64,000 nucleotides of DNA, taken from positions 62,001-126,000 of the forward strand of contig NZ_AKJY01000002.1 of NCBI RefSeq assembly GCF_000282115.1, written 5' to 3'. Under the pieces are notes generated by a model, which saw only the letters and a list, made by a program, of their open reading frames with translations, had not been told where the DNA came from and ran no database searches. Source of the DNA: Chryseobacterium populi (GTDB lineage Bacteria; Bacteroidota; Bacteroidia; Flavobacteriales; Weeksellaceae). This document shows positions 14,226 through 22,964 of this stretch, piece after piece; position 1 is the first letter of the stretch; each line of letters begins with the position of its first letter. Position numbers and translations under genes: made by a program.

Positions 14226-15248
14226 TTACTTTTTTTTAGGTTTTCTCCAAATAAAACCGTCTAATAGATAATGGGTAAGCTGGGGAACAACTAATAAGGG
14301 AATCAGAAACTGAAACCAAATTACAGAGAGTTGAAAATCCAAAGAGAAATGCTCACGCCAGATTAAAATTTCCCATAAAAATTCTTCAAAAAAAGCTAAC
14401 CCAACAATAATTCCAATAAACAGAAAAACTCCAAACGCTGATTTAAAGATTGACAGTTTATTAAGCTGATGATTTTCTTTCTGTTGAATTTCCCGTATGT
14501 AAATCAGGGAAACATAAGGAATTCCATGAGAAATAACATTCAGAAAGGTGAAAACAAGGTCATTATTGAAATGAATAATTCCAAAATACCATGAAAGATA
14601 AGTCCCGGCAATTAAGGCTATCTTAGGGATATTGATGTTTCTTAGTTTAAATAGCTCAAAACATGTTTTGAAAATCCAAGCTATTAAAATAAATCCATAC
14701 AGAACAGTGATGAGATATGTATAATCCGGTAAGTTTTGCAGCCAACTGAATTCATTTTCAACAAACCATGTGAAAGCTCTTGGAGTTTTAATCCAATAGA
14801 GCATCGGATAGATTGTAGCAGAATATATCGCGATGGTATCAATTTTTTTACGCCAGTTATTGGGTTCAAACCGTGCATAAATCCTCATAAAACCATACTG
14901 TTGCCTGATAAAATGGAAAATAGCAACCAAAGCCAACACCGACCAGAATACCAAACTTCCCCATTGATACAAGATTAAACCCAACACCCAACTCAGGACA
15001 GGAATCCTCCAGTATAACAGTTTTTTATTCCTAATTTCTTCTTTTACAAAATAGGTTTTAAATAAAGTAGAATAAACGTGGGCTACATCTACAAAAACTA
15101 TAAGGAACAGCCATGTATAAAAAGAATACCCATTCTCAAGATTCTGAATTTGCTTTTGAAAAAGAAAAATAATCAGTAAAATCAAAAATGGTGGCGAGAG
15201 AATCAGCCAGCCGTCAGTTTTCGCATTATGAATCCAGGGTTGCTTCAT
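14226..15248 (-). CDS. Polytopic membrane protein of unknown function with His motifs
   Basis: The 340-residue protein has about eight hydrophobic helices. Polar histidines sit at helix edges: DVAHVYSTLFKTYF, IFHFIRQQYGFMR, GIIHFNND, NVISHGIPYVSLIYI and LTHYLLDGFIWR. Repeated His/Asp positions facing the membrane recall membrane metalloenzymes or haem and carotenoid-type proteins, but I cannot assign a family. It is the last gene of the seven-gene SpeD operon and overlaps the FAD oxidoreductase by four bases (ATGA), so translation is coupled. Confidence 0.7.
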   Translation of the reverse strand: MKQPWIHNAKTDGWLILSPPFLILLIIFLFQKQIQNLENGYSFYTWLFLIVFVDVAHVYSTLFKTYFVKEEIRNKKLLYWRIPVLSWVLGLILYQWGSLVFWSVLALVAIFHFIRQQYGFMRIYARFEPNNWRKKIDTIAIYSATIYPMLYWIKTPRAFTWFVENEFSWLQNLPDYTYLITVLYGFILIAWIFKTCFELFKLRNINIPKIALIAGTYLSWYFGIIHFNNDLVFTFLNVISHGIPYVSLIYIREIQQKENHQLNKLSIFKSAFGVFLFIGIIVGLAFFEEFLWEILIWREHFSLDFQLSVIWFQFLIPLLVVPQLTHYLLDGFIWRKPKKK

Positions 15249-16837
15249 ATCATTTGTTTTGCTGTTCTGATTCCCTGATAAAAAGCTTCTTCAAAAATGG
15301 ATATTCCTGATAAATCAGTATGCGCAAAGAAAATTTTCTCATCAATTGGCTGCTTTGCTTCTGCTGTTTTCCCAGACATATGATTGGGGACAGGAGCAAT
15401 CATTGCATGCCCAATTTTATGAAATTGTATTTCGATAATGAAATCTTCAATCAAAGGATGGGCTTTTTTGAGGTCATCCAGCACAAGACTTTTGAGTTCA
15501 CTTTCTTTCATAGAAAATAATTTTCGTCTTGCTTTTCTGCAATCATCTGTTGAAAAACTTCTGTAATAGGTAATTACTTTTTCTCCCATAATCTGATTAA
15601 CATTCTGGTGTTGATCATAGATATATCCTAATCCTTCTGAACCGTAAATCACATTATCCCAAGCCAGTTCTTCATCACCTCCGAATTCATTTTTCAATGT
15701 AACCGTCGCTAAAAGCCAGGGAACATAATTGAATAATTTTGCGGTCCTGTTTTTAAAAATGCGTTCATTGACGAATTGAGGTGTTGCTAACAGAACTTTT
15801 TCAGCAATGACTTTTTTTGTTTTTTTATGTACATTATCAAAACTTAAAACTTCAACATTGTTTTGATTTAATCTTATATCAAAAACCAGATGATTAGATA
15901 AGTATTTCCCATCTGTATATTTTGATAGATATTTAACCAGCCTCGCATTCCCTTCAGGCCATGTGAAAACCTGATCTTTATATTTTTTGCTCCAGTTATT
16001 TTTTCTACCCGCAAAATAGTGAATTCCTGCCCAGGCGGAAACATAATCAATTCCCAATCCGTAATCATCCCGGCAAGAATAATCTAACAACCAAAGTAAT
16101 TCTTCCGATTTAAAATTTTCCACAGCAAGAAAGCTTTTAAAAAGCATCTTTTCCAATTGTATAAATTCAGGCTCTTCAAAGCTGGAATCTTCAACCGGAA
16201 TAGCAAAGACGTACTTCCCATGTGAATCTTTTTTTTCCCTGAAACCATCCATCATTTTGAAAAACCGCTCAAACTCTTTCTGAGCTTCAGCAGAAATTCC
16301 TTTTTGCGGAACAATATCATTTTGCCAGGAGTTTTTGTAGAATAACCTTTCCTGTTGTGGGAAAGTCAACTGATATTCATCTAAAACAGGATCGCCGTTT
16401 TCATCGTCACCAAGATAGATTCCACACTCTTTTAAAAAATCGATAATCTCTGTATTTTCTTTATTGGGTAATGGTAAGTAATGGGCACCCAAAGGAAATT
16501 TTGAAAATTTATTTTCTCCGTTTGAAGAGTTTCCACCGAGATAATTTTCCATTTCCAGCAACAGATAGTCATCGTTATCATTCTGTCTTAAAAACCGGCA
16601 GGCCGAAAGTCCGGAAATTCCACCACCAACAATAAGATATTTTATGTGAATTTCTTCGGTGGGTTTTGGAAAATCTTTAGCCCAAAGCTGATGACCAAGG
16701 ATATGATTTGTTTCTGTAATTTTAAGCAATAATGACTTTCCCTTCTTCTTACAATACTGTAAAAAAGGGAGTATCAGACTACCTAAAAATATAGTCTTAA
16801 GAAAATCTTTTCTATTGTACTTTCCCCCACTCTTCAT
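15245..16837 (-). CDS. FAD-dependent oxidoreductase (amine-oxidase-like), possibly exported
   Basis: The 530-residue protein has a Rossmann FAD motif IVGGGISGLSAC at residues 69-80, with an acidic end to strand 2 (YLLLEMENYLGGNS). It has the general layout of flavin amine oxidases and protoporphyrinogen-oxidase-like proteins. About 65 residues precede the Rossmann motif and contain NRKDFLK followed by a hydrophobic run and LQYC. This looks like a Tat-type signal (RK variant) with a weak lipobox, so periplasmic placement is plausible. It overlaps the aminopropyltransferase gene by 26 bases. The substrate is unknown; a polyamine is suggested by context only. Confidence 0.8.
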   Translation of the reverse strand: MKSGGKYNRKDFLKTIFLGSLILPFLQYCKKKGKSLLLKITETNHILGHQLWAKDFPKPTEEIHIKYLIVGGGISGLSACRFLRQNDNDDYLLLEMENYLGGNSSNGENKFSKFPLGAHYLPLPNKENTEIIDFLKECGIYLGDDENGDPVLDEYQLTFPQQERLFYKNSWQNDIVPQKGISAEAQKEFERFFKMMDGFREKKDSHGKYVFAIPVEDSSFEEPEFIQLEKMLFKSFLAVENFKSEELLWLLDYSCRDDYGLGIDYVSAWAGIHYFAGRKNNWSKKYKDQVFTWPEGNARLVKYLSKYTDGKYLSNHLVFDIRLNQNNVEVLSFDNVHKKTKKVIAEKVLLATPQFVNERIFKNRTAKLFNYVPWLLATVTLKNEFGGDEELAWDNVIYGSEGLGYIYDQHQNVNQIMGEKVITYYRSFSTDDCRKARRKLFSMKESELKSLVLDDLKKAHPLIEDFIIEIQFHKIGHAMIAPVPNHMSGKTAEAKQPIDEKIFFAHTDLSGISIFEEAFYQGIRTAKQMI

Positions 16838-18326
16838 CGAAATAACGAACTAATATTTGATTATCCAGACGGTTGATTTCTACATTATTTGCTTTCATAT
16901 CTTTTGTGAAATAGGCCATCTGTGAAAAATTGTAATCATAAAATTTCAAATTGGGAATTCTTCTGTAAATTTTATTTTCCACAGGTTCAAATGAAGCCAT
17001 AGAAAACCCCCACTCTCCGAAAGAAGGAACATAGGTATGGTAGGCCGAAGTAAACGGAAATATTTGATTCATCGTTTTTTCAATACACCAAAAAGATTTC
17101 GGTGCAAAGTAAGGAGATGTGGTTTGTACTACAATTTTGGTATTCGGAGTAGTCAATCTCTCCAACTCTTTATAAAATTGCAACGAGTATAATTTTCCTA
17201 AGCTATAATTTGACGGATCGGGAAAATCAATGATAATCACATCAAATTTCCGCTGATTTTCCTTCACCCAGATGTAAGCATCCTTATTGATAATTTTTAC
17301 TTTTGAATTGGATAAAGAGTTTTGATTAAGCTTACGCATTGTTTCGTTGGTTTTGAAGAAATCAGTCATTTCTCCGTCCAGATCAACCAAGGTTATATTT
17401 CTGACTTCTTTATATTTTAAAACTTCTCGAACTGCAAACCCATCTCCGCCTCCTAAAATCAGAATACTATCAATATTTTTTGCCATTGTCATTACCGGAT
17501 GTACCAAAGCTTCATGGTAACGGTATTCATCTGTAGATGAAAACTGTAAATTATTGTTCAAATACAAACGGAATTCACGATTATTTCTGGTCAACACAAT
17601 CCTCTGATAGGGTGAAGTTTTAGTGTACACTACATTCTCACCATATAATTTCTCTTCGGAATAGGACAGGATAGTATCTGAAAAAATGAAAAGAGAAAGA
17701 AGTAAAACAAAAGCACCAATAGACTTGACTCTTAAGGAAATAGGATTTGACAATTCTCTTTTAAGATAAAAACACAGAAAAATAGCAATCGAAATATTGA
17801 TTAACCCAAAAAACAAGGGTGTTTTTACAATTCCCAGATTTGGAATAAGGACCAACGGAAAAAGGATGGAAGCTAATAAAGCTCCTATATAATCGAATGC
17901 AAAAACATTTGAAACCAAATCTTTAAATCCAATCCTATCTTTAAGAATATTCATCAGTAAAGGAATCTCTATTCCCACAAGACAACCTGTAAAGAAAACA
18001 AATAAGTAAAGTACAGCCTCAAAATGAACTAAAGTATTGAATAGTATAAATAATACAACAGAGCTTATCCCACCAACAATTCCTACAAGGATTTCAATTT
18101 CTACAAATTTATCGATAAGGTTTCCTTTTATAAATTTTGCAAAATAAGAACCTACCCCCATTGAGAAAAGATATACCCCGATAATGAAAGAAAACTGCCT
18201 TACAGAATCTCCAAGAAGATAGCTTGCCAATGCTCCGGCAACCAATTCATAAATCAGTCCGCAGGTAGCAATAACAAATACTGAAAACAGTAATAATAGC
18301 TCAAGAGGAATCCTCTTTTTATCCAT
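16812..18326 (-). CDS. Membrane-fused polyamine aminopropyltransferase (spermidine-synthase-like)
   Basis: The 504-residue protein has an N-terminal membrane region of about seven helices (residues 9-217) fused to a spermidine-synthase-type catalytic domain. Domain marks are the substrate loop LYLNNNLQFSSTDEYRYHEA (254-273), AdoMet-binding GGGDG (292-296), the acidic VDLDGEM (314-320) and DFPDPSNYSLGKLY (367-380), in which the first Asp corresponds to the catalytic acid of spermidine synthases. It should transfer aminopropyl groups from decarboxylated AdoMet to an amine at the membrane. It is not proven to be a true spermidine synthase. It overlaps DUF350 by eight bases and the oxidoreductase by 26. 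Confidence 0.85.
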   Translation of the reverse strand: MDKKRIPLELLLLFSVFVIATCGLIYELVAGALASYLLGDSVRQFSFIIGVYLFSMGVGSYFAKFIKGNLIDKFVEIEILVGIVGGISSVVLFILFNTLVHFEAVLYLFVFFTGCLVGIEIPLLMNILKDRIGFKDLVSNVFAFDYIGALLASILFPLVLIPNLGIVKTPLFFGLINISIAIFLCFYLKRELSNPISLRVKSIGAFVLLLSLFIFSDTILSYSEEKLYGENVVYTKTSPYQRIVLTRNNREFRLYLNNNLQFSSTDEYRYHEALVHPVMTMAKNIDSILILGGGDGFAVREVLKYKEVRNITLVDLDGEMTDFFKTNETMRKLNQNSLSNSKVKIINKDAYIWVKENQRKFDVIIIDFPDPSNYSLGKLYSLQFYKELERLTTPNTKIVVQTTSPYFAPKSFWCIEKTMNQIFPFTSAYHTYVPSFGEWGFSMASFEPVENKIYRRIPNLKFYDYNFSQMAYFTKDMKANNVEINRLDNQILVRYFDEEWGKVQ

Positions 18327-18534
18327 GAATAGCTGCGCTTATAATAATTGAGATTCCGATGATAAATGCCCCGAAAATAATAGCCAGAGCTACATTTTGG
18401 TTTTTGGAAATTTCATACCATGTTCTTTCCGGTGTTAATTTTTCAATGATAAAATAACAAAGCAATAAGATACCAATCCCTAAAAATGAATAAAGAATCG
18501 AATTGAATATCGGTAACAAATTAATCTGGTCCAT
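18319..18534 (-). CDS. DUF350 small membrane protein
   Basis: The 71-residue protein has two transmembrane helices (SILYSFLGIGILLLCYFIIEKL and VALAIIFGAFIIGISIIISAAI). The spacing and the central LTPERTWYEISKNQNVALA match half of a DUF350 (YjfL-type) unit. DUF350 genes are known beside polyamine and glutathionylspermidine-type genes, as in the E. coli yjf cluster. It lies between the 65-residue protein (11-base gap) and the aminopropyltransferase (eight-base overlap). Confidence 0.75.
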   Translation of the reverse strand: MDQINLLPIFNSILYSFLGIGILLLCYFIIEKLTPERTWYEISKNQNVALAIIFGAFIIGISIIISAAIHG

Positions 18535-18545
18535 AATTTATATTT

Positions 18546-18743
18546 TTATTTGTGATAATATCTGTAGAAGCCTACTCTTGACGTGTGGCTTTTTGTAGTT
18601 CCGTCGCGGTAAGTTTCTGTTTTTGCACAATCACAGGTCTGATTTCCGCTATAAGTAAGATATGTAAACCAACCTACAAACAGCATCCCCGCTAGACAGA
18701 GAAACCAATTTTCTTTTATATAATCAAATATTTTTGTCATCAT
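18546..18743 (-). CDS. 65-residue single-TM protein of unknown function
   Basis: The product has one membrane helix (WFLCLAGMLFVGWFTYLTY) and a short polar tail with a CDC pair and many Thr, Arg and Tyr residues, probably periplasmic. No family is recognised. Two ATG codons at 18743 and 18740 are possible; the first overlaps the DUF4178 stop codon in a TAATG arrangement, implying coupled translation. Its place inside the operon supports a real gene. Confidence 0.65.
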   Translation of the reverse strand: MMTKIFDYIKENWFLCLAGMLFVGWFTYLTYSGNQTCDCAKTETYRDGTTKSHTSRVGFYRYYHK

Positions 18744-20221
18744 TAAGATTGGGTGTAAGGTGAATTGGAACTTTCACTCCATTTGGATATGCTAAAAAGA
18801 CGATTTCCCCAATAACAGGCTATAAAAAAGATTAGCATCAATCCTAAGATGATCCCGAAATTCCAGAATGAAACAGGAAGCCATGTTGCTTTAATATCTA
18901 CAGAACTTCCGTCCCTTATTACTGTATTTTGTGAAGCCTCTGATAAAGTTGTGTTGATATTCAGAAGAGAATCCAGATTTTGTTTGCCAAAGGTTTTGCT
19001 TACAAGACTTCCCATTGCAGACTGATCTTTTTTCAATGTTTCAAGATCTCCGAAAGCAACAGATTCTCTGGTATTATTATTTACTACATTCACAATCCCA
19101 GACGGTTCCCTGGATAAGGTAATATTTCCATCGGGAGATATATAATAATTAGAAGCTGAAGTTGTACTTATAATCGTTTCCTGTTTTTCAGCTGAAATAA
19201 CAAAATGATATTTTCCGGAAGCGACTCCACAGAAATTAAATTCTTCGGTTGTACTGCCTTCCGACCAGTTTTCTCCATCTTCATAACCATGATATTCTTC
19301 AATATCTTTGGAAGTATAAACCGCTTCGTTTGTATTTTCATTGACAAGGCTCAGCTGAACATTCGCCCACGAATTATCTACTGCTGAATGTAAATTTACT
19401 TTTAATGGGGCTGAGCCTCCCGAAAGTGTAAAGCTTTTGCTTGCCATTTCTTTATTTTTAACATCTTCAAACCTTACCGTCTGCTCGAAAACAGAATAAT
19501 TAGTGCGTGAAGTATAAACATACAATTGCAGTAAACAGATTAAAAGGGCTGCAATACACAAAATATTAATTGTTTGTTTTATATTGACATAAAAAGGCTG
19601 CACAATTCCGATTCCTGAATAATTGGGAAGATCAGAAATCTCAAATGCTTTTTTTACGGTATATTTAGAAATATGGCTTCCGAAAAAATGCTCATTAGAA
19701 CTCCCGGATTGTTCTTGAGAAATCATTTCCGTTCCGTTGACATATTCTTTGTAAGTAGCAATATTAAAATTCAGTGCATCCTCAAAAAAACCTGCCGCCG
19801 CGTCAATATGACATTCAGTAGTTTCGTACCATCTGTAAGTTCTATCATTCAGAATAATCTGTTTTGAACTTTTTTTACGGAATTTACCTATAGGCATTGG
19901 TAATAGAAAAACCCAATGTCCATTGCTTTCACTCAGAAAAGCATTATTTCCTTTCTGATCTTTCAGGTAGTACTCCCGCCAAAAGGTCCCGGAACCATAT
20001 TTACGGACAATGATTCCTATAACACTGTATTCAGCCTGATCAATTACTCCTTTCTGGCCAATGTTTAAAACAACATTTTCTACCGGCTTCCTGACAACTT
20101 TTTGGGATGAATTTTTAACGGTACTGATAAGATTAGAGCATGATCTGCATACATATTCTCCAACAGGAAAATTAATTTCATGTTTGTTTTCAGTTTTGCA
20201 GATGGGACAAACGTAATCCAT
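18743..20221 (-). CDS. DUF4178 protein with N-terminal zinc ribbon and two TM helices
   Basis: The 492-residue protein starts with a zinc ribbon (Cys5, Cys8, Cys25, Cys28). A DUF4178-type beta-barrel follows at about residues 50-170 (RKYGSGTFWREYYLKDQKG and the WYETTECHIDAAAGF end). A membrane helix lies at 218-236, then a 210-residue probably extracytoplasmic beta-rich domain, and a second helix at 452-472. DUF4178 is of unknown function. It begins four bases after speD and overlaps the next gene by one base. Confidence 0.75.
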   Translation of the reverse strand: MDYVCPICKTENKHEINFPVGEYVCRSCSNLISTVKNSSQKVVRKPVENVVLNIGQKGVIDQAEYSVIGIIVRKYGSGTFWREYYLKDQKGNNAFLSESNGHWVFLLPMPIGKFRKKSSKQIILNDRTYRWYETTECHIDAAAGFFEDALNFNIATYKEYVNGTEMISQEQSGSSNEHFFGSHISKYTVKKAFEISDLPNYSGIGIVQPFYVNIKQTINILCIAALLICLLQLYVYTSRTNYSVFEQTVRFEDVKNKEMASKSFTLSGGSAPLKVNLHSAVDNSWANVQLSLVNENTNEAVYTSKDIEEYHGYEDGENWSEGSTTEEFNFCGVASGKYHFVISAEKQETIISTTSASNYYISPDGNITLSREPSGIVNVVNNNTRESVAFGDLETLKKDQSAMGSLVSKTFGKQNLDSLLNINTTLSEASQNTVIRDGSSVDIKATWLPVSFWNFGIILGLMLIFFIACYWGNRLFSISKWSESSNSPYTQS

Positions 20222-20225
20222 TTTT

Positions 20226-20585
20226 TTATCTGTAAATCGTATGTTTTTGAAGGGTTTTAGCTTTAAAATACCTGATCACCTCATCTGCAATGATTTCCAC
20301 TTTTCCAGTATTATCCTGTGTATAATTGCAAAGAAAAACATCGAAAGTCAGCTGCTTAAATTCCGGCCAGGTATGAATACACAAATGGGATTCTTTCAGA
20401 CATACCGCTGAAGTAAAGCTCTGATTTTCAAAAATATGATTGGTTATCCCAACAATTTCTACTTCTTTGCCCTTTAAAATTGTTTTAATATATTGTAAAA
20501 AACCATTACTATCTAATAATAAATCTTCTAACTCCGTTTCCAAAGTTAGAAGAATATGCAAACCTTTACTGGTAGGGAATTCCAA
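20226..20585 (-). CDS. speD: S-adenosylmethionine decarboxylase (bacterial SpeD type)
   Basis: The 119-residue protein has the self-processing site KESHLCIHTWPE: Ser66 should become the pyruvoyl group after cleavage between Glu65 and Ser66, and His71 assists. The later FDVFLCNY strand also fits the short class of bacterial AdoMet decarboxylases (about 120-130 residues). It makes decarboxylated AdoMet, the aminopropyl donor for the membrane transferase encoded 1.9 kb downstream. It is the first gene of the operon, with a -7 element at 20602-20609. Confidence 0.88.
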   Translation of the reverse strand: MEFPTSKGLHILLTLETELEDLLLDSNGFLQYIKTILKGKEVEIVGITNHIFENQSFTSAVCLKESHLCIHTWPEFKQLTFDVFLCNYTQDNTGKVEIIADEVIRYFKAKTLQKHTIYR

Positions 20586-20601
20586 TTGATTATATTTTAC
20601 G

Positions 20602-20609
20602 CAAATATA
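20602..20609 (-). promoter_or_regulatory. -7 element of the SpeD operon
   Basis: On the minus strand TATATTTG fits TAnnTTTG and is 16 bases from the speD start. No clear -33 TTTG is present at the standard distance. The element falls between the CtlX-like gene and speD, so the seven genes can be transcribed independently of the upstream pair. Confidence 0.55.
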
Positions 20610-20629: not shown

Positions 20630-21553
20630 TTATTTCTTAGGCAGAAAAACCTCAGCCAGCATACAGCGTGCACTTCCACCACCATTTACTTCAATTGTAT
20701 TGAGATCAGAGTAAATGATACCACAGTATTTTTCAATATTTGAAATTTGCTCCCGAGTTAAAGATTGATAAGCTGTCTCACTCATGATCAGGAATTTTTC
20801 ACCCTCTTTATTCCGTACCTGAAGCATATTGCCGGCAAACTGCTGCATCTGCTCTTCGGAAATTTCGATAATTTCTTTTCCCGAACTTTTAATCGTTTCG
20901 ATCACCTTGCTTCTTTCCAGCTCATCATCGATACAGTCTAAGCAGATCACCACAAACTTATCTGCCACACACATCATGACATTGGTGTGATAAATAGGAA
21001 GCCTTTCTGATCCTACCGTCTGAAAAGAATGAAAAACAACAGGCTCAAAGCCATATTTTGAACAGAAGTCCCGGAATAACTGCTCATCAAGCCTTAAGGA
21101 TACAGAACCATAAGCAATTTTATGGTCATGGTCAAAGATCATACTTCCCGTTCCTTCCAGAAAATGTCCCTGTATTTCAGAAAAAGACCAGTCATCAATT
21201 TCAGCGACTTCAAATCCCTGGTTTTTGATCGTCTCAATAATATCATCCCTTCTTTCAACTCTTCTGTTTGATGCGAACATCGGATATAAAACCACCTTGC
21301 CGTCTTTATGGAAGCTTACCCAGTTATTCGGGAAAATAGAATCCGGAGTGTGGGGATCTAATGTATCTTTAACGGTAATCACATTAATCCCTTTGCTTCT
21401 TAATTTCCCGACAAAATTATTGAACTCTTCCAAAGCTTTAGACTGAACATCAGAATTCTTCTGTTCAACCTGAAAGTAATTGTTTTTTGCGGTTTCCGCA
21501 TTGTAGCCGAAAGCAATCGGCTCTATCATTAAAACGGTATCTGTTGTTTGCAT
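20630..21553 (-). CDS. CtlX-like arginine-deiminase-superfamily hydrolase
   Basis: The 307-residue protein belongs to the guanidino-group-modifying (GME) superfamily: FPNNWVSFH near the start, EGTGSMIFD, a HTNVMMCV histidine motif and a C-terminal GGGSARCMLAEVF with the nucleophile Cys. The MIEPIAFGYNAETAKNNYFQ opening resembles citrulline-utilisation hydrolases (CtlX). It probably deiminates or hydrolyses arginine, citrulline or a methylated relative. It lies 48 bases after the next enzyme, likely in one operon. The ATG at 21553 is used rather than an upstream one. Confidence 0.78.
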   Translation of the reverse strand: MQTTDTVLMIEPIAFGYNAETAKNNYFQVEQKNSDVQSKALEEFNNFVGKLRSKGINVITVKDTLDPHTPDSIFPNNWVSFHKDGKVVLYPMFASNRRVERRDDIIETIKNQGFEVAEIDDWSFSEIQGHFLEGTGSMIFDHDHKIAYGSVSLRLDEQLFRDFCSKYGFEPVVFHSFQTVGSERLPIYHTNVMMCVADKFVVICLDCIDDELERSKVIETIKSSGKEIIEISEEQMQQFAGNMLQVRNKEGEKFLIMSETAYQSLTREQISNIEKYCGIIYSDLNTIEVNGGGSARCMLAEVFLPKK

Positions 21554-21601
21554 TTTTTTTTGATTTAAAAATTCTCTCAAGATTAAAAAAACTCTCTGAT
21601 A

Positions 21602-22516
21602 CTACTCCCGCACCAAAGGCATTGTAGAGCATCTTAATAAGCCGCCCATTTTAGAAATTTCGCGGTAAGGAATTTCTTCTACGGTCATTCCCCACTCGTT
21701 TCTGAAATGATTATTCATTCTCGTGAATGATTGGTCTGAAACTATAATTTCAGGGGAAATGGAGAAGATATTCGGGAACATTTCAAACATTTCTTCGTCA
21801 GTCACATGAAAGCAGTTTTCTTCTCCGAAAATATCAATGATTAAACGATAATCACTCTCATCTACAAAACCGTTTTTATAAATAATACATTTATCTTTTC
21901 CAATCGGGTTGAAGGTACAATCTAAATGCAGAATCCCTTCAAAAGGAATTTTGTCATTTTTCTTCAGCTCCAGGTCAATGATCCTTTTTTTAGGAAAATA
22001 TTCTTTCAGAATTTCGATAGCGTATTCATTGGTTCTGGCTGTTTTATAGTTTCTGTAGTCTTCGCTGAAGCATGTTCCTATGAAAAGAAAATCATCCCAG
22101 ACAATAACGTCTCCACCTTCGATATGTGCCGTTTCCGGGAGATTGATTATTTTTCTCCAGGCTACTTTTTCAAATACTTTTTTATACGCTTCCTGCTCAT
22201 CGGCCCTATCTGCGATCACATTTGAGATAATCATTTTATCATCAATCACAAAAGCCACATCTCTTGCAAAAACCTGGTTATAGTCTTTGATAATACTCGG
22301 ACGCAAAACTTCTACATCATATTTATTCAATACTGCTTCAAAAGCATTCATTTCATTGATAATATCCTCTTCTTTAGGATACATATTGTGTTCGATTGAA
22401 TAATAGGACTTGGCATCATAGCTTTCCTCAAGAGTGGGAACCGGTCCCATTGAATTAGGCTGGCCGAGAACAACTGATTTTAACCTCCCTGTTTCGTTTT
22501 TAATATTTAGTTTCAT
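21602..22516 (-). CDS. Amidinotransferase/arginine-deiminase-family protein
   Basis: The 304-residue protein has the GME catalytic residues: ARDVAFVID, HIEGGDVIVWDD (acidic residues and His), HLDCTF (His) and the C-terminal GGLLRCSTMPLVRE with the nucleophile Cys. This fits glycine-amidinotransferase or arginine-deiminase-like enzymes, although the exact reaction cannot be set. It is the first gene of a two-gene unit with the CtlX-like hydrolase. Together they suggest arginine or citrulline turnover beside polyamine genes. Confidence 0.78.
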   Translation of the reverse strand: MKLNIKNETGRLKSVVLGQPNSMGPVPTLEESYDAKSYYSIEHNMYPKEEDIINEMNAFEAVLNKYDVEVLRPSIIKDYNQVFARDVAFVIDDKMIISNVIADRADEQEAYKKVFEKVAWRKIINLPETAHIEGGDVIVWDDFLFIGTCFSEDYRNYKTARTNEYAIEILKEYFPKKRIIDLELKKNDKIPFEGILHLDCTFNPIGKDKCIIYKNGFVDESDYRLIIDIFGEENCFHVTDEEMFEMFPNIFSISPEIIVSDQSFTRMNNHFRNEWGMTVEEIPYREISKMGGLLRCSTMPLVRE

Positions 22517-22799: not shown

Positions 22800-22964
22800 A
22801 TGAACAAGAAAAATCCGGCGCTAAAAAATGCGCAAAAATTAGGCAGAGATCAGCAAAAATCAATTCTGGGCGGTGCACCACCTACATCAAGACGCTGCTG
22901 TGAATGGGACTTTGAAACAGGCGTATGTACTTTGTACACCTGTGACAGATGCCAATGTCCTTAA
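22800..22964 (+). CDS. 54-residue Gly-Gly-leader, Cys-rich peptide (RiPP/bacteriocin-like precursor)
   Basis: This short gene encodes a lysine/glutamine-rich leader with the LGRDQQKSILGG pattern, ending in Gly-Gly at residues 24-25, followed by a 29-residue core APPTSRR... with six cysteines (33, 34, 43, 48, 51, 53). The leader matches double-glycine leaders of bacteriocins and Bacteroidota natural-product precursors, which are cut by a C39 protease/ABC exporter. No maturase or exporter gene lies nearby. An AGGAAA-AA-TTTCCT repeat (22722-22735) and a TATCTTAG box (22735-22742) lie upstream. The divergent side holds arginine enzymes and the convergent side a receptor gene. Confidence 0.65.
   Translation: MNKKNPALKNAQKLGRDQQKSILGGAPPTSRRCCEWDFETGVCTLYTCDRCQCP

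Follow-up and report, generated by a model that had tools for sequence, protein, structure and literature searches.

Which molecule receives the aminopropyl group that a membrane-fused, spermidine-synthase-like enzyme would transfer in Chryseobacterium populi? The question arises from a seven-gene operon that open reading frames place at positions 14226-20585, minus strand, of the window, by which we mean the whole 64,000-nucleotide stretch of DNA that was analysed. The operon begins with speD (20226-20585), which encodes a predicted class 1b AdoMet decarboxylase of 119 aa from a TTG start (PF02675, 65.7 bits, 5.5e-18). There follow genes for a 492-aa zinc-ribbon and DUF4178 protein (18743-20221; PF13785, 45.5 bits, 1e-11; Zn_Ribbon_TF, 5e-4), which has an ectodomain between two TM helices (hydropathy peaks at residues 217-235 and 450-468), a 65-aa single-TM protein (18546-18743), a 71-aa two-TM DUF350 protein (18319-18534; PF03994, 51.1 bits, 1.9e-13) and a 504-aa protein in which a 7TM domain is fused to a spermidine-synthase-like domain (7TM-SpdSyn; 16812-18326; NF002956, 634.8 bits; PF01564, 132 bits). 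The last two genes encode a 530-aa FAD protein of the amine-oxidase family with a Tat-like and lipoprotein-like N-terminus (15245-16837; PF01593, 34 bits, 2.7e-8; PF13450, 48 bits, 1.6e-12) and a 340-aa polytopic membrane protein (14226-15248). Neither the 65-aa protein nor the polytopic protein matched a Pfam or NCBIfam family above cut-off, and their descriptions below come from tail conservation for the former and from alignments and a structure model for the latter. From speD to the polytopic gene, the intergenic distances are +4, -1, +11, -8, -26 and -4 bases, which agrees with a preliminary description of this DNA in which the genes are joined by overlaps or by gaps of at most 11 bases. 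That description extended the operon to 20609; its genes stand, but the speD coding sequence reaches only to 20585 and the bases up to 20609 are upstream DNA. Immediately upstream of the TTG start lies the TAnnTTTG element TATATTTG (20594-20609), of a kind typical of Bacteroidota promoters. The next genes upstream of speD, 44 bases away and in the same orientation, encode DDAH-like and ADI-like arginine-modifying enzymes (20630-22516), a pair that is kept in Chryseobacterium-group loci (42 of the 88 complete loci described below) and not elsewhere. A 54-codon open reading frame with a bacteriocin-like leader, KNAQKLGRDQQKSILGGAPPTSRRCCEWDFETGVCTLYTCDRCQCP, occupies 22800-22964 between the ADI gene and a gene for a TonB-type receptor-like protein.

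The fusion protein scores well above the curated cut-off of 472 bits for NF002956. Its structure model (pLDDT 77, with residues 461-504 poorly modelled) shows seven TM helices, one pair of which is drawn as a single long helix, followed by a SpdSyn fold. The SpdSyn domain resembles solved aminopropyltransferases in sequence (7xif, E 1.6e-32) and in fold (1uir, E 1.1e-14, the best PDB match), and it retains GGGDG, DFPDP and Gln401. Conserved across 31 transferases are GGGDG, DxPDP and, at the E438 position, an acidic or amide side chain. The acidic residue of the GxG(D/E)G motif separates users of decarboxylated AdoMet from methyltransferases (PMC10349129), and it was D or E in 31/31 diverse sequences, with GAGDG at one locus (L158). 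The retained GGGDG and DFPDP motifs together with the predicted spermidine-synthase fold thus support the proposal, already part of the preliminary description, that the protein is an aminopropyltransferase. These data also bear on whether the SpdSyn-like domain is instead an AdoMet methyltransferase, like the fungal enzyme NHMT, which modifies secreted LPMOs by methylating their N-terminal histidine and has the same 7TM-SpdSyn architecture (PMC10349129). The likeness extends to the site of action, as NHMT works on the terminus of a secreted protein and we propose the same below for the enzyme described here. However, NHMT transfers methyl from AdoMet, targets an N-terminal histidine and has Ile in the donor motif in place of the acidic residue found in all 31 sequences here, and the operon contains speD. 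We consider a methyltransferase to be the remotest of the readings weighed here.

The preliminary description also named SpeD as the supplier of decarboxylated AdoMet, and the sequence retains what processing and catalysis require: the ESHLCIHTWPE and FLC motifs contain the counterparts of S63, H68 and C83 of the T. maritima enzyme (the pyruvoyl-forming Ser together with the His and Cys), which is consistent with that role. SpeD scores above the cut-off for PF02675 and, at 63.7 bits, under the equivalog cut-off of 75.65 for TIGR03330; neofunctionalised SpeDs exist (PMC10407285), and ornithine or arginine would be the alternative substrates to AdoMet. The genome encodes a single speD and a single strong spermidine synthase, as would be expected if the operon were the cell's spermidine synthesis route in membrane-fused form. 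However, speD was present in only 10/30 related genomes, and its absence from most of the other sampled genomes of the genus indicates that it is dispensable. Furthermore, the genome contains a DS-family (deoxyhypusine-synthase-like) gene (G000:C32:48996-49910; L228) that probably encodes a homospermidine synthase and would provide a separate polyamine route, which makes it probable that the operon is neither the housekeeping polyamine pathway nor required for general polyamines. A genome search for the carboxyspermidine route returned no close nspC, with a match far under the cut-off. Fusions of this kind reportedly do not make spermidine, and their acceptor is said not to have been identified. 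Taken together, we regard a membrane-fused spermidine route as very improbable.

Comparison of gene content around DUF4178-DUF350-speD loci, a check proposed in the preliminary description, was carried out across related genomes. All six other members of the genus with speD have the complete operon in identical order. A scan of named genomes returned 466 relatives of the polytopic protein, from which 80 loci were kept (Chryseobacterium, Epilithonimonas, Elizabethkingia, Flavobacterium and related isolates), and nine further loci were added. The order speD, DUF4178, small protein, DUF350, 7TM-SpdSyn, FAD protein and polytopic protein was fixed in 88/88 complete loci of Flavobacteriia and Cytophagia, two of which are one contig reached twice, which bears out the seven-gene operon as described and indicates that the arrangement is not due to chance. 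Nested forms occur elsewhere. The core of speD, DUF4178, small protein, DUF350 and transferase is found without the oxidase at two loci (L223, L224), and the oxidase is found without the polytopic protein at L146, L154-L157 and L214-L216; among the loci read, every operon with the polytopic protein also had the oxidase.

The candidate acceptor emerged from the 65-aa protein, which ends in GFYRYYHK. The codons for its final YYHK occupy 18549-18560 on the minus strand, with the putative aminopropylation site, the terminal lysine, at 18549-18551. The small protein ends (F/Y)(Y/H)HK in 88/88 complete loci, while the remaining ectodomain diverges. At the equivalent position in other operons, unrelated small TM proteins of Novosphingobium, Gemmatirosa, Tritonibacter and Ensifer end SHK, HGK, RVK and SGK, and larger lipoprotein or exported partners (G005, G066, G087, G088, G184 and Alteromonas) end FGK, GGK or SGK. 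Partners were chosen by gene position, except that the Burkholderia partner, conserved in two species and encoded between the DUF4178 and speD genes, was found by a search for K-ended open reading frames. The rule of a terminal lysine was drawn from the small TM and lipoprotein or exported partners above, and all loci read subsequently fit it, four new clusters among them (tails YHK, GGK, GFGK, QHK, HHK and SFGK, and GSHK in the two Burkholderia). In sum, the exported partner ended in lysine in 113/113 distinct 7TM-SpdSyn loci that lack a GspS-like ATP-grasp ligase; these loci span several classes of Bacteroidota, Alpha-, Beta- and Gammaproteobacteria and Gemmatimonadota. A plasmid collection contained no DUF4247 partner of the kind found in Actinobacteria and Bacillota, and a Pfam search of the small partner proteins found nothing convincing. 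By BLAST, the 31 partner representatives fall into 11 clusters that show no similarity to one another. With a background of terminal lysine in 19% of 1529 open reading frames, the chance of a lysine tail in all 11 clusters is about 1e-8, and arginine was never seen at the partner tail. In two genomes (G002 and G338), the K-tailed protein forms the C-terminal part of the DUF4178 protein (L146, 9695-11089; L221, 6260-6964). Several partners carry a lipobox, and these lipoprotein forms place the tail outside.

A different tail was observed beside GspS-like ATP-grasp ligases, where the final residue of the partner is G, S, A or L and a terminal lysine was found in 0/16. These 16 comprise two loci that also encode the transferase and 14 that do not, including E. 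coli YgiB and YjfM, which end SRSMGG and GHWGG and are adjacent to YgiC and YjfC. RefSeq names YgiC and YjfC peptide-spermidine ligases, after Pederick et al. (2023), as cited in PMC12270671 and PMC12568646. ATP-grasp partners of Bacteroidota (L199-L211) end GG, GS, SS, HA or SL, and, judging by these sequences, the tail of the ATP-grasp system is probably a small residue and not strictly Gly-Gly. The two loci that combine both enzymes (G158 and G064; L148 and L149) encode 7TM-SpdSyn, a divergently transcribed speD, the ATP-grasp ligase and a partner ending SYGG. Only these two GG-tailed loci have GGGEG in place of GGGDG and Asn at the E438 position of the transferase, which elsewhere is Glu, Asp or, once, Gln. 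A further genome (G166) has both systems at separate sites, each with its own tail type. The association between lysine tail and ligase gave a Fisher p of about 1e-20 by locus, a value that overstates the independence of the loci. Across the loci compared, the C-terminal lysine tail was linked exclusively to the transferase. The C. populi genome as a whole contains no match to GSP_synth (PF03738), which upholds the earlier statement that no ligase is present and separates the operon from the peptide-spermidine ligase systems of YgiC and YjfC.

These tails led us to revise the acceptor. The preliminary description held that an aminopropylated amine or lipid is made at the membrane and then oxidised outside; the membrane site and the aminopropyl transfer are supported, but the conserved lysine tails shift the likely acceptor to the C-terminal lysine of the 65-aa protein. 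If the product were nevertheless a small amine or lipid, the 65-aa protein would be an accessory subunit that docks on the transferase through its tail, and both the retained spermidine-synthase active site and the membership of the oxidase in the amine-oxidase family would fit. However, that reading, which we consider unlikely, leaves unexplained the exact terminal lysine, never arginine, on unrelated partners and the switch of the tail to GG or GS in the presence of an ATP-grasp ligase. Braun's lipoprotein, Lpp, likewise ends in a lysine, which is joined to peptidoglycan, and the small lipoprotein or TM partners with a C-terminal Tyr-x-Lys, several with the lipobox noted above, resemble it. 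A lysine that serves as such a cell-wall anchor, with the transferase acting on another substrate, is nonetheless improbable, as the lysine tail follows the transferase and is absent where the ATP-grasp system takes its place, and an unsystematic look at the operon genes read noticed no L,D-transpeptidase. More generally, the terminal lysine could serve for recognition or anchoring and not as the acceptor. On the sequences compared here, the C-terminal lysine of the 65-aa protein appears more likely to be the acceptor than a free amine or lipid.

We also considered where the reaction would occur. In 31 diverse transferases, the number of Lys and Arg residues per loop was 2.2-3.7 for presumed inner loops and 0.4-0.7 for outer loops, a positive-inside pattern that suggests an N-in topology, for which the catalytic domain is predicted to lie outside the cytoplasm. 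The oxidase carries an N-terminal [SGNK]R[RK]xF motif in 89/89 sequences, with RR in about half and, in the window, the RK variant of the twin-arginine motif (NRKDF), and it has Cys at a lipobox-like position in 88/89. Together with the seven-TM, N-in transferase, the Tat-like signal of the oxidase supports the membrane as the reaction site, as previously described. A transferase domain on the outside would need exported decarboxylated AdoMet, for which we know of no precedent, and the lysine modification might alternatively occur in the cytoplasm, before export. The oxidase belongs to the Amino_oxidase family (PF01593, 34 bits against a cut-off of 19.8) and had no sequence match in the PDB; as a relative of polyamine oxidases, it could cut a secondary amine, and thereby act as an eraser, or make a reactive aldehyde.

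For the polytopic protein, the structure model (pLDDT 81.6) gives about ten helices, which replaces the eight TM segments originally counted. Two alignments revealed invariant residues at Asp54, His57, His112, Arg115-Gln116, His241, Glu288-Glu289, His326 and Asp330. A Foldseek search with the model found no match under E 0.4, and the hits of VIA-align were confined to helical bundles of rhodopsin type (Z about 7), a score that is uninformative for such bundles. Distant relatives of 390-440 aa (L021-L026), from other Bacteroidota lineages without the operon, share HxxRQHYGF and HHYFxDQxIW. The viral contigs searched contained no relative. The distant relatives have no common neighbourhood, and for that reason we assign no function to the polytopic protein. 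As an idea only, its invariant His, Asp and Glu residues might, by analogy with deoxyhypusine hydroxylase, serve a di-metal hydroxylase.

Overall, a small group resembling a polyamine is very likely attached at the cell membrane by the products of the operon. We put at about even the chance that SpeD makes decarboxylated AdoMet, that 7TM-SpdSyn aminopropylates the C-terminal lysine of the partner at the inner membrane and that the oxidase acts afterwards. SpeD would convert AdoMet to decarboxylated AdoMet, and 7TM-SpdSyn would place its aminopropyl group on the side-chain amine of the terminal lysine to yield Nε-(3-aminopropyl)lysine. The aminobutyl side chain of lysine would mimic putrescine, and the chain end would be able to enter the deep active site. 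The reaction would probably be extracytoplasmic, with decarboxylated AdoMet crossing the membrane, perhaps via the 7TM domain or DUF350, and DUF4178, which some genomes encode as a fusion with the tail protein, may be an adaptor. The putatively Tat-exported FAD oxidase would then oxidise or remove the aminopropyl group, and the polytopic protein, found only with the oxidase, may be an accessory. The ATP-grasp ligases would instead couple spermidine to the carboxylate at the partner's C-terminus, in the way that GspS couples it to glutathione; given the GG tail at the two loci with both enzymes, the transferase may accept other amines as well. In this scheme, gene content, gene order, motifs and the exclusive link of the lysine tail to the transferase are seen in the sequences, and we infer the acceptor atom, the membrane side, the oxidase reaction and all substrates.

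Parts of this system have been described before. The clusters of AdoMetDC, MFS-SpdSyn fusion and DUF350 reported by Li et al. (2019) have SpeD, the fusion and DUF350 in common with the operon here and, as PMC11237479 presents them, a role outside polyamine synthesis. That paper (Ravi et al., 2024, citing Li et al., 2019) describes the core cluster, names an AdoMet decarboxylase and a polyamine oxidase in this connection, and refers to other substrates being aminopropylated. Its PspA-associated polyamine operons share DUF350, DUF4178, 7TM-SpdSyn, AdoMetDC, a 'polyamine oxidase' and a small lipoprotein with the operon here, whereas PspA and CesT/Tir genes are absent here, where DUF350 has two TM helices; in Pfam and NCBIfam searches, none of the seven operon genes matched PspA. 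The lysine tail was unmentioned in the searched text of PMC11237479, and no earlier report of it was found in the literature searched, which covered few subscription papers. Thus, the core operon and a role outside polyamine synthesis are already published, and the lysine tail as a clue to the substrate is new. E. coli YgiB-YgiC and YjfM-YjfC, in which a DUF1190 protein accompanies a peptide-spermidine ligase, likewise pair an exported small protein with a polyamine enzyme, include DUF350 in the yjf cluster and are proposed to use the C-terminus of the partner, but they rely on ATP-grasp amide ligation and a GG tail in place of the proposed aminopropyl transfer and lysine tail. In eIF5A, deoxyhypusine and hypusine arise when an alkyl amine derived from a polyamine is added to the side chain of a lysine, as proposed for the tail, but the group is an aminobutyl from spermidine, the lysine is internal and the enzyme is cytosolic and of another fold.

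We therefore propose, at slightly less than even confidence, a new post-translational modification in which 7TM-SpdSyn enzymes, which occur in several phyla, act outside the cytoplasm and add an aminopropyl group to the lysine that ends a small exported protein, in parallel to the ATP-grasp attachment of spermidine to a Gly-Gly-type tail, both of which would yield a membrane-anchored, polyamine-ended protein. The 7TM-SpdSyn fusions are said to be abundant, occurring in thousands of genomes. For these enzymes, the donor is likely and the acceptor has so far been missing, and the C-terminal lysine of the adjacent exported protein provides one named candidate. If the proposal is true, it would reveal a bacterial lysine modification comparable to hypusine and would unite the 7TM-SpdSyn and YgiC/YjfC clusters as makers of polyamine-tipped membrane proteins.
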